Shown here one piece after another: positions 6,971 through 33,124 of a stretch of 35,181 nt of DNA. A program made the position numbers and the translations under genes. How positions within the stretch are numbered: position 1 is the first letter of the stretch; the number at the start of each line of letters is the position of its first letter. The notes under the pieces are model-generated. The model was not told where the DNA came from. It searched no databases and saw nothing but the letters and a program-made list of their open reading frames with translations. Origin of the DNA: Chthonomonadaceae bacterium (lineage in GTDB: Bacteria > Armatimonadota > Chthonomonadetes > Chthonomonadales > Chthonomonadaceae); assembly GCA_027450145.1 (NCBI GenBank), contig DAIDKH010000045.1:1-35181 (forward strand). Reading direction: 5' to 3'.

Positions 6971-9900
6971 GTGCTGGAGGATGACACTCTGATTGACCGA
7001 ATTTCAACTGGTGTGCTGGACGCACTGGCAGTACCAGCGCTAGTCGTTGTTTGCGACTATACTAAGACTAGCGTAGGAGTAGCTGCGCTGAATGCGTCTG
7101 CGCGGCACCTGTTTCTTCTTGGGGAAACAGTGTCGGGCGTTCCCTCCTTAGACAAGATTGCGCCCGCCCTTGTTGATCTGCTTCTACGTAACAAACAGGC
7201 AAAGTCTCTGGAGCACGGTGGTATTTTATTACCTGTTGGAGATACGGCGGTTGATTACCGTGCCCATGCGGTTAAGTTACTTCCCTGCACAGACTCGAAC
7301 ACTCAATGGCTTTGTACCTTTACTCGCTCAATTGAGTCGGCGGATGTAATACGGCCACCGCGCCCGCTCGGGCATGACCATCTAGTAGAAGAGGATAGTG
7401 CGCCCCTGTGGGAAAGACTTCACCTGGGTACGGATGCAATTATAGTTAGCACCATTCCTTCGAGCAGCGTCCATTCTTCAACGGTCTTGTATGCTTCGCG
7501 AGAATTCTGCGCGATGACAGCCTTCTCGCCTCAAGATTTGATCGGCAAGCCACTTAGCGCCTTCAATGTTAACCTGGGCGATGGCGACGAATTCAATCGA
7601 ATGCTGGTCGAAGCCGCGAGCGGGGCGAGTGTTCGATTTGGCATTACGCTATTACACAAGCAAAATAGCAGCGAATATGTAGAATGCGAATCGTCCCACG
7701 TTTTCGGTGCGGATGGCACTCCTGCGCTCTTAATTCACGTTCTGCGCCGGTCTAAGGGTAGCTCCTCGAATCTGGTTGGGGCTAGTTCAAGATTACGTGA
7801 GCTAAAGGCCGTAGTGGCAAGTGGCCTGGACGGATATGCCCTGGTGAATGAACACGGCGAGCTGCTAGAGGCTAGTTCAAGTGGTCTTTTGGGACTGGGT
7901 TGGACCCGTGAAGAGTTATTGAACTGTAGTTGTCTTGATCTTGTGCATCCAGATGATCAGGAATTTGTTATAAACGTCTTCAGGGACATCAGATCGGCTC
8001 CGGGAGCCGCTCGAAGAATCGATATGCGCGTGAATAAAGCGAACGGAAGTGCAACCTGGTTAGCAGTCGTGATGACCAACCTCTTACACGAACCTGACGT
8101 ACGCGCCGTTGTTCTAAATTACAATGATGTGTCTACGCGCAAGTTCACGGAATTTGCTCTTCAGCGAAGTGAGGAGCGACACCGTTTGCTGTTTGAACGA
8201 AATCCCGGTGCAATGTGGCTTTGCCATCCCGAGACGTTGCGGTTTGTTCAGGTCAACTCGGCGGCGGAACGGGCCTACGGCTATTCCAGCGCCGAATTTG
8301 TCAACATGACGATTACGGATATACTCCCGCTTACCTCTAGGCAACTCTTCCACGAAAAATGCGCGGAGGCTGATGTCGACCTTCCAACCTCACTTGGAGT
8401 TTGGTCGCTTATTGGTGGTGATGGCTCCATAGTTGACTCACAACTGTACGCTAGTCGGCTCATAGAAGAGACCAGCGATCTCATGCTAATAATGGCAATA
8501 GACGTGACGCAGCAGACAAGGGCGCACAGGGACCTTTTGAATAGCAACCTTAAGGTTCAACTATTGCTTGAGGAAGAGCAGGAGAGATCTGAGATCTTAC
8601 ATGCGCTGGCGGAGGCGGCAATTTTAATAAACACCTGCAAATCAACACAGGATATTTTGCAGCGAGCGACCGATTATGCGCGGCGCCTCGCCCGCGCCGG
8701 CGTTGCGACGATATCCCTCAGCAAATCTGAGAATGATCAGGAGCAGGTTAACACTATTTCTACGGATCTTAGTGCCAATGCGGCTGCCCAAGCGATCGAT
8801 ACCGCAATTGAAGTGCAAGTTAACGGAGCGATTGCACCTGAAAGTGCTGAATCGGGACCGAATGCGGACCACCTGACTACCCGGCAACATCAGAACGAAA
8901 ATAGTTGGCAGACTGGTGTACCGACTAAGTTGACCGTGCCGTTACGCGATAGTGCTGGCCTAATCGTTGGGTATCTAACCGTCATTCGTGAAGAGAGCAG
9001 CAGTTACTCAGCCGACGACGAGAATGTACTGGTCCAACTCGCACAGATGGTCTCGGGTACTCTGGACAACCGAACGCTGGTGGAACAGCTAACAGAGAAT
9101 ACCGAGCGGCTGCGCAAGAGTGAGGAGCGGTACGCTTTGGCACTGGAGGGCTCTAACGACGGTATTTGGGACTGGCAGGTAAATTCCGAGTCCGTAATTC
9201 GTTCGCCTCGCTTTCTCTCATTGATTGGTTTCGATACCAACGAGGACATCGAGCAGTTGGGCTCGTGGAATATGCGCATACATCCAGATGACCGCGAAAA
9301 GGTGATTAAGGCCCGCCACGATCACCTGTATCACGGCGTTCCTTACGATATCGAGATGCGCGTATTGACCTTTTCGGGGGAGTACCGCTGGTTTCGATCA
9401 AAAGGGCAGGCGGTTTGGGATGAACACGGAACACCAGTGCGCATGGTGGGTTCATTTACTGACCTCACGGAGCGAAAGGCTCTGGAGGAGCAGCTGTTGC
9501 AGGCCCAGAAACTGGAGAGCATAGGTAGGCTAGCCGGTGGAATTGCACATGATTTTAACAATATGCTCACGGGCATACTTGGTTTCAGCGAGTTGGCCAG
9601 GCTGAAGCTTGATGATGGCAGTAACGACATTCATGACGACCTTCAGCAGATCGAAGGCGCAGCGCTTAGAGCGGCAGACCTTACTTCTCAGCTGCTTGCA
9701 TTTGCCAGAAAGCAGATCATCAGACCGCAAACTACTGATTTAAACGAACTTGCACGAAGCACTCATTCTATGTTGACCCGCCTAATCGGCGAAAATGTTC
9801 AGCTGCAGGAGGATTTGCAGGCTGATCTGTGGATGGTTAGTATCGACCCCGGGCAGTTTCAACAGGTCATTGTGAACCTGGCCGTAAATGCTCGCGATGC

Positions 9901-10677: not shown

Positions 10678-11619
10678 CTATGGCGTCCGTGCTGCCGAGC
10701 TGCCATATATCGCATTAATAATCGCAGCCTCCACTGGGCTTGCACTGTCGTTGTCCTGCCGAATATCAAGTCGTTGGTTAAGCGGTGTGGTTCGGTTGCA
10801 CATAAACCGCGGCTTCCGCAACGTATTGGGCGCTGCCGCGTGAAAGAGAAAAGGATGACAAAGGTAGATGTCTCCCGCTCGTCCGGTGGTTTCAACTACT
10901 CTTAATGCTGTGCCATGGTCATCCACGTAGGGTCGGTTCATGAACCTCTCCACCCGGTTACCGCTTTCGTGCCAGCTTCGGAAATTGGCCGGCCATAATG
11001 CGGCATCGTCAGAGCTTAGCGTGCCAGTAAGATCTTGCAACCAGAGATTCTGCTCAATGCAAGCTTTTATAGCGGTGCCTAACTGCATAGGTTCATTCTG
11101 TTTTGCCAGGAAGCGTGCAACGACCTGGTGCGAGCCCGTAGCGGCAAGTGTCGCGCCGCCATGGCTGCTAATATCTGAGAAAAAGCAGAGTAGCAAGAGA
11201 CCTTGGTCTGGAGCATCCACGGTATGCTGAAAGTGAATACCATCCCAGTGCCAGCCATTCGTCGAAACGGTCCAATCAGAGTCGGCGCCCACGCTGAAGT
11301 TCACTGGCCACCAACCCCACCCGTCCTGGGTCTCTCGCGTTATCCACCGCCCCGCGCCCACAAGCTCATCAACGGCCTGCTTAAGGCGTTCTGTCTTGCA
11401 TTGTCTAAATGCAGGTGTATCGTAGGTTTCCGTCAGATGGATCATTGGTTTTGTCCACGTTAAGGGATCCTTAGGGTCGGCACCCATCTCCTCTACCCGC
11501 TGCCAGACATCCTGTTGTGCAGCGAGGGCAACATCGTGTGGGTAAGCCTGTTCAACACGGACAAAGCCAAGCTGAATGAATTGATTGCGTTGTTCCTGCG
11601 AAATGATAGTTGAAGTCAT
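10678..11619 (-). CDS. Phytanoyl-CoA dioxygenase (PhyH) family protein
   Basis: A 313-residue Fe(II)/2-oxoglutarate-dependent oxygenase of the PhyH family. The iron-binding triad is visible as His124 and Asp126 (GWHWDGIHF) and distal His260 (FLFHAAAPN); an Arg follows in 'RKPRFMCNRT', as expected for 2-oxoglutarate binding. The substrate cannot be predicted, because bacterial PhyH proteins act on many small molecules. The start at ATG 11619 is 9 nt after GGGAG; a GTG two codons earlier is too close to it. The gene is monocistronic and convergent with the kinase gene, with 41 bp between the two stop codons. It is distant in sequence from the other PhyH protein at 16946-17776. Confidence 0.88.
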   Translation of the reverse strand: MTSTIISQEQRNQFIQLGFVRVEQAYPHDVALAAQQDVWQRVEEMGADPKDPLTWTKPMIHLTETYDTPAFRQCKTERLKQAVDELVGAGRWITRETQDGWGWWPVNFSVGADSDWTVSTNGWHWDGIHFQHTVDAPDQGLLLLCFFSDISSHGGATLAATGSHQVVARFLAKQNEPMQLGTAIKACIEQNLWLQDLTGTLSSDDAALWPANFRSWHESGNRVERFMNRPYVDDHGTALRVVETTGRAGDIYLCHPFLFHAAAPNTLRKPRFMCNRTTPLNQRLDIRQDNDSASPVEAAIINAIYGSSAARTP

Positions 11620-11892
11620 CAGCACATGCTCCCGCTGCGGTCATTTATTTTAGAATTCTGCGTCAATTAGCGGATACCTGCCAACATTTAAGTTAAATCA
11701 AAATTAAAGCATTTTGGTGGTGAATGTACGGAGAACTAATCGGTAACTGCGCGACGTGCAACAACAGAGGACTGAGAAATAGCGAGGACGGTGCACCTCA
11801 GGTTCTGCGATTGGTGGCCTAGGGTTACCGAAAGGACGATTAGAGGTACAAGTGACAAAGAAACGAAGATAGCACCAAGACTCAAAAAGAGA

Positions 11893-28692: not shown

Positions 28693-28980
28693 ATAGCCGC
28701 TAATCTTTGTTAGTGTAGTGATCTTTAATATGCGCGTCGATAATGAGTTTATTAAGCACGAATTGTTAAGTGCCTGTTATAAAGACGGTGATTTTGTTCG
28801 TGGAATAGTTTTGAAATTTTGAATTCCGTTCATGAAAAGAAAAACGCGATTCAGCTTACGTAAGGTACAAATTCGGCGATTTTGCGAATAGCATGTCCGT
28901 CAATTTACTAGTTGCAAAACATTTAGCCTAATGGCTTGTACGCGTATGGCAATCGACAGTCGCACCGACACCGGGCAACC
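28693..28980. other. AT-rich intergenic region before the first prepilin gene
   Basis: Together with the repeat array this makes a 400-bp non-coding stretch. It contains the 10-bp palindrome CTTACGTAAG (28855-28864) and A/T runs but no recognisable RNA gene or strong terminator for the preceding gene. Confidence 0.4.
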
Positions 28981-29018
28981 TTAATATAACCTTAATTGAA
29001 ATTTAATCTTCTCTTAAC
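28981..29018 (+). promoter_or_regulatory. Array of four 11-bp-spaced direct repeats (Pho-box-like)
   Basis: TTAAT begins at 28981, 28992 and 29003, and TTAAC at 29014: four half-sites at exactly 11-bp intervals. Two of the four, with flanks, are TTTAATCT and CTTAACCT, matching the cyanobacterial Pho-box unit PyTTAAPyPyT; the others are CTTAATAT and CTTAATTG. Repeats at this period on one DNA face are typical of OmpR/PhoB-family response regulators. The array ends 82 bp before the prepilin start codon. Which regulator binds, and whether phosphate is the signal, is unknown. Confidence 0.6.
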
Positions 29019-29100
29019 CTACCAATAGTTCATTGAAGTGTAACATATGAGCGTTAGGCTTAAAGATCTCTAATCTTGTTCCCGTTCGAAAGGATACTTC

Positions 29101-30015
29101 ATGAGTCAGAACTCTCAGAAGCGTGGCTTCACGTTGATTGAATTGCTTGTAGTTATAGCTATCATTGCAATATTAGCCGCCATTTTGTTCCCGGTTTTTG
29201 CCCAGGCACGTGAAAAAGCTCGCCAGGCTACCTGCGCCAGTAATCTTAACCAAATCGGAATCGCTTGGATGATGTATTTGCAGGACTATGACGAAACCAT
29301 CCAGCCGAATAATGACGAGACTATTCCTGGCGGTTTGGATGGAACTGGGTTTACTGAGGCACCGATTTATCTACTAAATCCGTACATCAAGTCTCAACAG
29401 GTTTGGTTGTGCCCGGACCGAACCGAGTCATTTACGGCGAAGTCGTGGGCGACCGATTCCCGAGCAGACGATCCCTCCGGATGTTTCGACAACATCAATG
29501 CGACTGGACGCTGCCTCGGTTATGGCTTCGACGATGGTCTTGTTAGCGACGGAGGTTACGGCCTGCAGGACGCGAACTCCTACGATGCCAAGGGCAACGC
29601 CATGAACCCCGGCCGCGCTTACGCCGCAGTGACAGCACCCGCCTCTACCATCGCCTTTGGTGACTCGTACGACAACCCGGACTATTCTTTGGCGCTAGAC
29701 AACATTATGAGCCGATTGGGCCGACCAGGCGCACCGGCCGTCTCCTCCGGTGCTATTCGCCACATGGGTATGTTCGAGTTTGTGTTCGCCGATGGCCACG
29801 TGAAGCCCATCAAGATGACCGTAGCCAACTACGCCGGCTTTGGACCAATCGGTCTTCCTGCCAACCAGGCCGACGCCCAGGCATGGTGCATCGACCCGAA
29901 TCAAACTGGCTCGTATCCCAACGGCACCAGCGGCAACTATCCTCTTACTGCTTCCGGTGAGACCTGCACCCAGGCAATTCAGGACCTGTACAGCCACTCG
30001 ACTATCATTCCGTAA
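29101..30015 (+). CDS. Prepilin-like protein (type IV pilin / type II pseudopilin N-terminus, H-X9-DG C-terminus)
   Basis: A 304-residue protein with a class III signal: MSQNSQKRG is removed between Gly9 and Phe10, and Glu14 is the conserved +5 glutamate. The mature N-terminal helix [17 protein letters not shown] is hydrophobic, followed by '[17 protein letters not shown]'. The large C-terminal domain resembles the DUF1559/H-X9-DG proteins abundant in Planctomycetes and Armatimonadota, with His-X9-Asp-Gly in [14 protein letters not shown]. It may be displayed at the surface or form a pseudopilus; its role in these phyla is not known. The start has AAAGGA 8 nt upstream. A strong terminator follows, and Pho-box-like repeats precede it. 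Confidence 0.92.
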
Positions 30016-31969: not shown

Positions 31970-32938
31970 TTAGTTACACCACGGGTGAGCTGCGTTGCTG
32001 TCGGTTGTCCAGAGGCAGATATTGCCAATTACCTGATCGTAAGGAATTGCCTTGGTATGACCGTCTACGAATTGAACATCGATCATGCCGCTATGTCGCT
32101 GTGGGCCAAGTGTAAGAGCCTGCTGCACAGTCTCCATATTGCCATTATTCCAGCTGTACTTAGAGTTTCCGATGTTCATCCAGTAGTTGGAGTAGAACGA
32201 TGCAGGTGCGGCCTGGCTGTTGGCATATGCGCAATCTGCGTTGTTGCCCGAGCTAGTGGGAGTGTTTCCACCACCAATTGGTGCAGCGTTGTACAGCTTG
32301 CCGGTTGCATTGCAGAGGTCCGGCGCCGCGCCATAATATGTGGAGTCCACAATCATGACGGTTCCTGACGGGCGAGGAACACTCGCATCGGCAACTGTAG
32401 CGACCGCGCCGCCGTACGGCGTTGCAAAGTTCGCTGCAGGGCTCATCCACACGTCGTTATGGCCGTAGCTATTCTGTCCACCATATCCTGCACCACCGCA
32501 TCCGATGCTAGAGGCGTTCTGCGCTCCACCGCAGAGAACCCCGGGGGTACCCTCCTCGGTAAACGGGCTAGGATTATCTGGGCACACAAACAGTTGGTAA
32601 TTCTTTGTGTAAGGCTCAAGCAGGCTTATCCAGAACGTTTTGTTACACGCAACGCCGCTAATGGCGCCTCCACACTGGATGTTAAGGATGCTGAGGAACG
32701 GGTTGGAGTTTGGTCCGGAGTTCCACCTGTGTGGGTAGAACGTTTCATCATAATCCTGAACGTACATACCTGTTGCCAGACCCATCTGGTTCAGATTAGA
32801 GATGCAGGATGCCTGGCGCGCTTTTTCGCGAGCCTGCGCGAATACCGGGAACAGGATTGCCGCGAGAATCGCGATGATTGCGATGACAACCAGCAACTCA
32901 ATAAGGGTAAAACCGGTTTGTTCGCGTTTCAATTTCAT
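31970..32938 (-). CDS. Prepilin-like protein, H-X9-DG type (second copy)
   Basis: A 322-residue protein of the same design as the one at 29101-30015. MKLKREQTG is cleaved after Gly9, leaving Phe10 as the methylated first residue, with Glu14 at +5. The next about 25 residues are nearly the same as in the first protein, after which the two diverge: the C-terminal domain is Gly/Asn/Ser-rich. The H-X9-DG motif is [14 protein letters not shown]. Several cysteines suggest disulfides after export. The start at ATG 32938 has AAGGGAGA about 12 nt upstream. An upstream 19-bp block is shared with the first prepilin gene. Role unknown. Confidence 0.92.
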
Positions 32939-33105
32939 GTCTTTGGATCTCTCCCTTAGAAACTGCGACTAGTAGCATTTAAGGACACACCAGGACGGTC
33001 GCAACGTACAAGGCGCCATGATGACACAACGTAGTGCCTTACTTAAATTCAAAATAATTGTACACTCGCGAGATTAATGCAATATTATGAAATGCCTTTC
33101 AAAGA

Positions 33106-33124
33106 TTAAGAGAAGATTAAATTT
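33106..33124 (-). promoter_or_regulatory. 19-bp block shared with the first prepilin gene, two Pho-box-like half-sites
   Basis: On the minus strand the sequence is AAATTTAATCTTCTCTTAA, exactly as at 28999-29017. With its next bases it holds TTTAATCT and CTTAATCT 11 bp apart, both matching PyTTAAPyPyT. It begins 168 bp upstream of the start codon of the second prepilin gene, in the same orientation relative to that gene as the first copy. A CATAAT about 13 bp after the last half-site may be a -10. Confidence 0.6.

Follow-up and report, generated by a model that had tools for sequence, protein, structure and literature searches.

In E. coli, PhoB binds 11-bp direct repeats that replace the -35 element, with the -10 element following the last unit at about 17 bp, and the PhoP box of B. 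subtilis is made of TTAACA-like repeats. In cyanobacteria, the SphR site consists of three or more tandem 8-bp repeats separated by 3-bp linkers, with the consensus CTTAACCT (PMC1906773), and mutating any one of three TTAA cores abolishes or strongly reduces the binding of Synechocystis PhoB (PMC11126600). Type IV pilus genes have been listed among the putative targets of Synechocystis PhoB (PMC11126600), and P. aeruginosa responds to low phosphate with the Hxc type II secretion system, which includes HxcT (PMC9769906); thus, a link between phosphate control and pilus-like machinery has precedents. The Fimbriimonas genome contains 79 PulG-like genes, 65 of them with a methylation motif, for which a role in attachment was merely suggested (PMC4072686). 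In the literature, we have found no published Pho-regulon study for the bacterial group to which the DNA analysed here belongs.

The array and its gene

The window, i.e., the whole stretch of 35,181 bp analysed, is contig C45 of a 4.14-Mb genome (168 contigs, 96.65% complete). The initial annotation described four TTAA(T/C) half-sites in 11-bp register, and the letters confirm all the starts: TTAAT (28981-28985), TTAAT (28992-28996), TTAAT (29003-29007), and TTAAC (29014-29018) follow each other in exact 11-bp steps. The bases preceding half-sites 1 to 4 are C, C, T, and C; since a pyrimidine precedes each half-site, the unit can be written as YTTAAYN5 and the array starts at 28980, spanning four units with a YTTAAY core at 28980-29023 (+). 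On this strand, the predicted Pho-box units are CTTAATATAAC (unit 1; 28980-28990), predicted from its sequence and the array score, CTTAATTGAAA (unit 2; 28991-29001), whose half-site is kept in the same-genus orthologue of genome G011, TTTAATCTTCT (unit 3; 29002-29012), identical in G011, and CTTAACCTACC (unit 4; 29013-29023), whose CTTAACC is identical in G011, with diverged DNA from there up to the -10 element. The predicted -10 element, TAACAT (29041-29046, +), lies 28 bp downstream of the beginning of unit 4 and is not accompanied by a good -35 element; the G011 orthologue has TAGAAT at the same 28-bp offset.

The gene behind the array (29101-30015, +), its predicted target, encodes a 304-aa protein that is, as had been proposed, a prepilin. 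It is of the DUF1559 type and matches PF07963 (N-terminal methylation motif; E=3.9e-10, 39.3 bits, cut-off 21.2), PF07596 (DUF1559/SBP_bac_10; E=1.3e-7, 32.3 bits, cut-off 23.3), and TIGR02532.

A second 11-bp array in the window, with the two units TTTAATCTTCTCTTAAT (33105-33121, -), is located upstream of another prepilin gene, whose G011 orthologue has TTTAACCTTCACTTAAT. These first two units are nearly equal to units 3-4 of the main array. A proximal unit, ATTAAT (33073-33078, -), reached through one 10-bp step in the register, lies 16 bp before the -10 element predicted from the sequence, TACAAT (33057-33062, -). The predicted target (31970-32938, -) is a DUF1559-type prepilin of 322 aa that matches PF07963 and PF07596. 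There is also a two-unit match, TTTAATTTTGATTTAAC (11692-11708, -), 82 bp upstream of the ORF 10678-11625 (-), which may be due to chance.

When compared with the known systems, the array shares both unit and spacing with the SphR/PhoB Pho box of Synechocystis PCC 6803 (8 + 3 = 11 bp, at least three repeats), and the Synechocystis pstS2 site CTTAATTCtatCTTAATTTcgaCTTAATCA (PMC1906773) is nearly interchangeable with the arrays found here. The resemblance to the cyanobacterial Pho box pointed out in the initial annotation is borne out: a YTTAAY core, of the CTTAAC/T type, recurs in four units at 8 + 3 bp. The two differ in that the arrays belong here to another bacterial group, that about half of the strong sites examined are located before prepilin genes, and that unit positions 7-8 are only weakly biased (84 units of relatives). 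The E. coli PhoB box also has 11-bp direct repeats and phosphate uptake and scavenging genes as targets, but its half-site is CTGTCA, whereas those of the window are CTTAAT, TTTAAT, and CTTAAC, and thus the array is not of the E. coli type. The B. subtilis PhoP box is similar in having TTAAC-type half-sites at about 11 bp and an OmpR-family regulator, but in the arrays described here a pyrimidine precedes the half-site and TTAAT is as frequent as TTAAC.

Conservation and promoter geometry

Orthologues of the window pilin, which were found by protein search, have not lost the array. Three or four units are present at the same place in the orthologue of the same genus (G011, 98%), in those of two other genera (G008, 83%; G010, 72%), and in a 56% homologue from a fourth genus (G007), while no array is visible upstream of a 55% homologue in G016. 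Between the window and G011, the array is nearly unchanged from unit 2 on, but the stretch that separates it from the -10 element and the upstream DNA have diverged, and thus the array behaves as a phylogenetic footprint.

The computed distance to the -10 element is also fixed. In 79 arrays, the offset of TANNNT, counted from where the last unit begins, peaks at 16-17 bp (32 cases) and at 27-28 bp (28 cases), two values that are exactly 11 bp, i.e., one repeat, apart. The window pilin and its orthologue use the longer offset of 28 bp and pstS uses that of 16 bp; the shorter spacing (16-17) is like the E. coli PhoB layout. Since the offsets are fixed one repeat apart, this geometry fits a class II activator bound on one helix face.

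Phosphate genes and prepilins behind similar arrays

The pstS gene of the same genome is preceded by CTTAACATTTTCTTAAT, the last unit of which begins 16 bp before TATACT, and the gene cluster behind this array contains pstS first, then a fused pstCA gene, and then pstB. The fusion joins PstC and PstA in one 692-aa ORF (L032:6104-8182, +) that scores above the cut-off for both TIGR02138 and TIGR00974. Such arrays also precede four of the genome's six genes for PF04185 phosphoesterases, and the other two have no array. In L041 (8165-8453), a two-unit array separates a flagellin-like gene from a divergent gene for a PF04185 phosphoesterase and may serve either of them.

The pstS genes of the relatives were found by protein search, with the motif disregarded. 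Of the 14 pstS loci from the family, 12 have 2-5 units upstream in the 11-bp register. The two remaining loci have a gene for an S-layer-type porin (matching Porin_O_P and SLH in the one that was checked) ahead of pstS: in G014 the array is located before this phosphate-porin gene, and in G005 the contig ends ahead of the region upstream of the porin. In these two relatives (L326:2100-3737, -, and L332), the S-layer/phosphate-porin gene and pstS apparently form one unit under the Pho array. The TTAA pairs upstream of the relatives' pstS genes are spaced at 11 bp (25 pairs), 22 bp (15), and 33 bp (8), with 0-3 at the other spacings. Because these upstream regions were chosen without regard to the motif and carry it, we take the motif to be this lineage's Pho box.

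Among the distinct triple arrays listed by pattern search, which is not a random sample of genes, 41 of the 87 examined (the one of the window included) are located upstream of a prepilin gene. Prepilins account for about 2% of the genes (a rough value, from 68 in 4.1 Mb) and are thus strongly over-represented. The other genes of the relatives that carry arrays encode PstS, PhoU, a phytase-like protein, type I phosphodiesterases, and a phosphate-selective porin, and further ones encode a secreted protein with a lamin-tail domain, a SpoU methylase, and a DinB-like protein. A three-unit array is found before a gene of the genome analysed that encodes a small DUF1572-like protein (L038, about 8255-8500) and before that of the DinB-like protein in G010 (L177); this DUF1572-like/DinB-like gene is a possible Pho target. 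On the whole, the arrays cluster upstream of phosphate and prepilin genes, which the initial annotation had proposed to check, i.e., the pstS gene of the same genome, 12 of the 14 from relatives, four of the six PF04185 genes, and many prepilins.

About 70 DUF1559 prepilin genes are dispersed over the genome in this lineage, and the genome analysed has 68 prepilin genes with the N-methylation motif, nearly all of which share one protein start. Upstream of these 68 genes, TTAA pairs occur 15 times at 11 bp, 7 at 22 bp, and 4 at 33 bp, with 0-3 elsewhere; upstream of the relatives' pilin homologues, the corresponding counts are 36, 20, and 9. The half-site matrix test was passed by 12 of the 68 prepilins versus 2 of 275 control genes (Fisher p=1.0e-7), the controls being mechanical ORFs from random stretches and their number approximate. 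Periods of 8-10 and 12-14 bp gave no comparable prepilin enrichment in the same test. Two of the 12 passing prepilins, those on contigs C8 and C62, are weak and seem to be false positives. The possibility that all the prepilins are Pho targets was discarded, since only those 12 score; with 56 of 68 genes lacking an array, pilins in general are not targets.

On the prepilin tree, which has many weak forks, the Pho label requires 9 changes versus 11.2 for shuffles, and 17 of 500 shuffles were as low. The label is thus mildly clustered, mainly in the clade of the window pilin (C45, C4, C126, C11, and C71), and the other labelled genes are scattered. From this mild clustering it does not follow that the putatively Pho-controlled pilins arose once, and the scatter suggests that arrays may have been repeatedly gained or lost among the prepilins. 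Pilus or pilus-like machinery has been linked to low phosphate in P. aeruginosa and, through putative PhoB targets, in Synechocystis, but there it consists of a single secretion operon or of pilus-biogenesis genes, whereas here many dispersed DUF1559 paralogues have their own arrays.

Candidate regulator and competing explanations

The genome encodes five ordinary OmpR-type regulators, and only the one on contig C29 has an RTVDVH recognition helix of the PhoB/PhoP type. This protein (L034:8982-9662) contains a receiver domain and a winged-helix OmpR C-terminus, and its gene is followed by the adjacent gene of a PhoR-like PAS histidine kinase, confirming that a PhoB-like regulator is present. 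It reaches 269.5 bits with the PhoB model TIGR02154 (curated cut-off 296.2) and 273.5 bits with the YycF model (cut-off 340), and it also misses the MtrA and RpaB cut-offs; the kinase is closest to PnpS/PhoR, below both cut-offs. Since the curated cut-offs were missed, the names PhoB and PhoR rest on context, from which we infer the identity of the regulator. The nearest solved structure is that of mycobacterial RegX3, the phosphate regulator of its host. The N-terminal portion of the PnpS profile, apparently the transmembrane/sensor part, is missing from the kinase ORF (L034:9675-10727, +), and the kinase may be soluble. The phoU gene is located on another contig, and neither phoB nor phoU of this genome has an obvious array upstream, so there is no sign of phoB autoregulation.

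Because the same repeats are found in front of phosphate-uptake genes, phosphatase genes, and the pilin genes of relatives, the array is very probably a phosphate-regulator site, i.e., a Pho box for a regulator of the PhoB/PhoP/SphR type, most likely the C29 protein, that would activate the pilin gene at low phosphate. The control of this pilin by a PhoB-like regulator, predicted initially, is supported by the conservation of the array, the arrays of the phosphate genes, and the C29 pair. Points that speak against this reading are the missed cut-offs, the absence of obvious arrays at phoB and phoU, the two PF04185 genes, the 56 prepilins and the G016 homologue that lack an array, and the longer -10 spacing of the window pilin. 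We infer activation rather than repression, and a low-phosphate signal. When phosphate is scarce, the PhoR-like kinase would phosphorylate the C29 regulator, whose dimers would align head to tail on the four repeats, all on the same face, and assist the binding of RNA polymerase at the -10 element (29041-29046). The prepilin gene 29101-30015 would then be switched on together with pstS-pstCA-pstB, some ten further prepilins, and the genes for secreted phosphoesterases.

The same data have to be weighed against an array that is a mere coincidence or a purely structural element. A/T-rich upstream DNA in which four TTAA words happen to fall at 11 bp could produce such an array, since TTAA words are frequent in intergenic DNA, and the pairs TTAAYN6TTAAY are in modest excess at spacing 11 in the whole genome (43 versus about 25 per spacing). 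This genome-wide count is a weak test, because several matches are inside ORFs and the signal is in upstream regions. However, the four-unit array scores 36.6 bits with the half-site matrix, versus 13.7 bits for the best four-unit 11-bp array in 400 kb of the same genome on both strands, the matrix scan having covered this 400-kb sample and the upstream regions of all 68 prepilins. The exact patterns were searched over the full 4.14-Mb genome, in which the triple TTAAYN6TTAAYN6TTAAY has four matches; two of these overlap in the array described here, which leaves three loci including that of the window. Moreover, a search of 17 family genomes gave 41 matches to YTTAAYN5YTTAAYN5YTTAAY and 0 to its reversed control pattern, while in the phylum the triple array is present in 52 of 291 genomes and control matches in two. 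No equally good array was thus found at random, and a chance origin, already refuted by the conservation of the array in orthologues with diverged flanks, is discarded by the period controls, the reversed-pattern controls, and this conservation; we regard it as the least credible of the explanations. Only slightly less improbable is that phased TTAA tracts, acting as curved DNA or as a UP-like element, raise promoter strength without a specific regulator. Helical phasing and a -10 element at a fixed distance would agree with this, but the core is a sequence-specific YTTAAY rather than an A-tract, is limited to a small gene set rich in phosphate functions, and is absent from 273 of the 275 controls and from 56 of the 68 prepilins.

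More serious, although still unlikely, is the possibility that the array is read by another OmpR/PhoB-family regulator, such as a WalR/YycF-, MtrA-, or RpaB-like protein with a role in the envelope or in growth, and that pstS is just one of its targets. In fact, the C29 protein obtains a slightly better score with the YycF model than with that of PhoB, and many targets are envelope or secreted proteins. Nevertheless, every curated cut-off was missed, that of YycF by more than that of PhoB, most of the targets other than pilins are phosphate genes (pstS, found in almost all the genomes, phosphoesterases, the phytase-like protein, the phosphate porin, and phoU), and the motif equals the Pho box tested in Synechocystis (PMC11126600). 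The computed association with phosphate genes leads us to read these arrays as those of a putative Pho regulon with prepilins as a major class.

The job of the pilin is probably surface attachment or a secretion/uptake pseudopilus in phosphorus scavenging. We lean slightly towards the idea that phosphate starvation switches the cell to a considerable subset of the prepilins, including one conserved clade, that would belong permanently to the Pho regulon and form a phosphorus-scavenging surface structure, which may serve for attachment, for the capture of DNA or organophosphates, or as a pseudopilus exporting phosphoesterases. What is new here is a large dispersed prepilin family with its own predicted Pho arrays, conserved over genera. 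These bacteria have dozens of prepilins per genome without a known reason, and a Pho box on a defined subset of them provides a regulatory handle, since the arrays predict which prepilins should appear at low phosphate. A Pho-box matrix for the group would thus allow the phosphate regulon to be predicted gene by gene.
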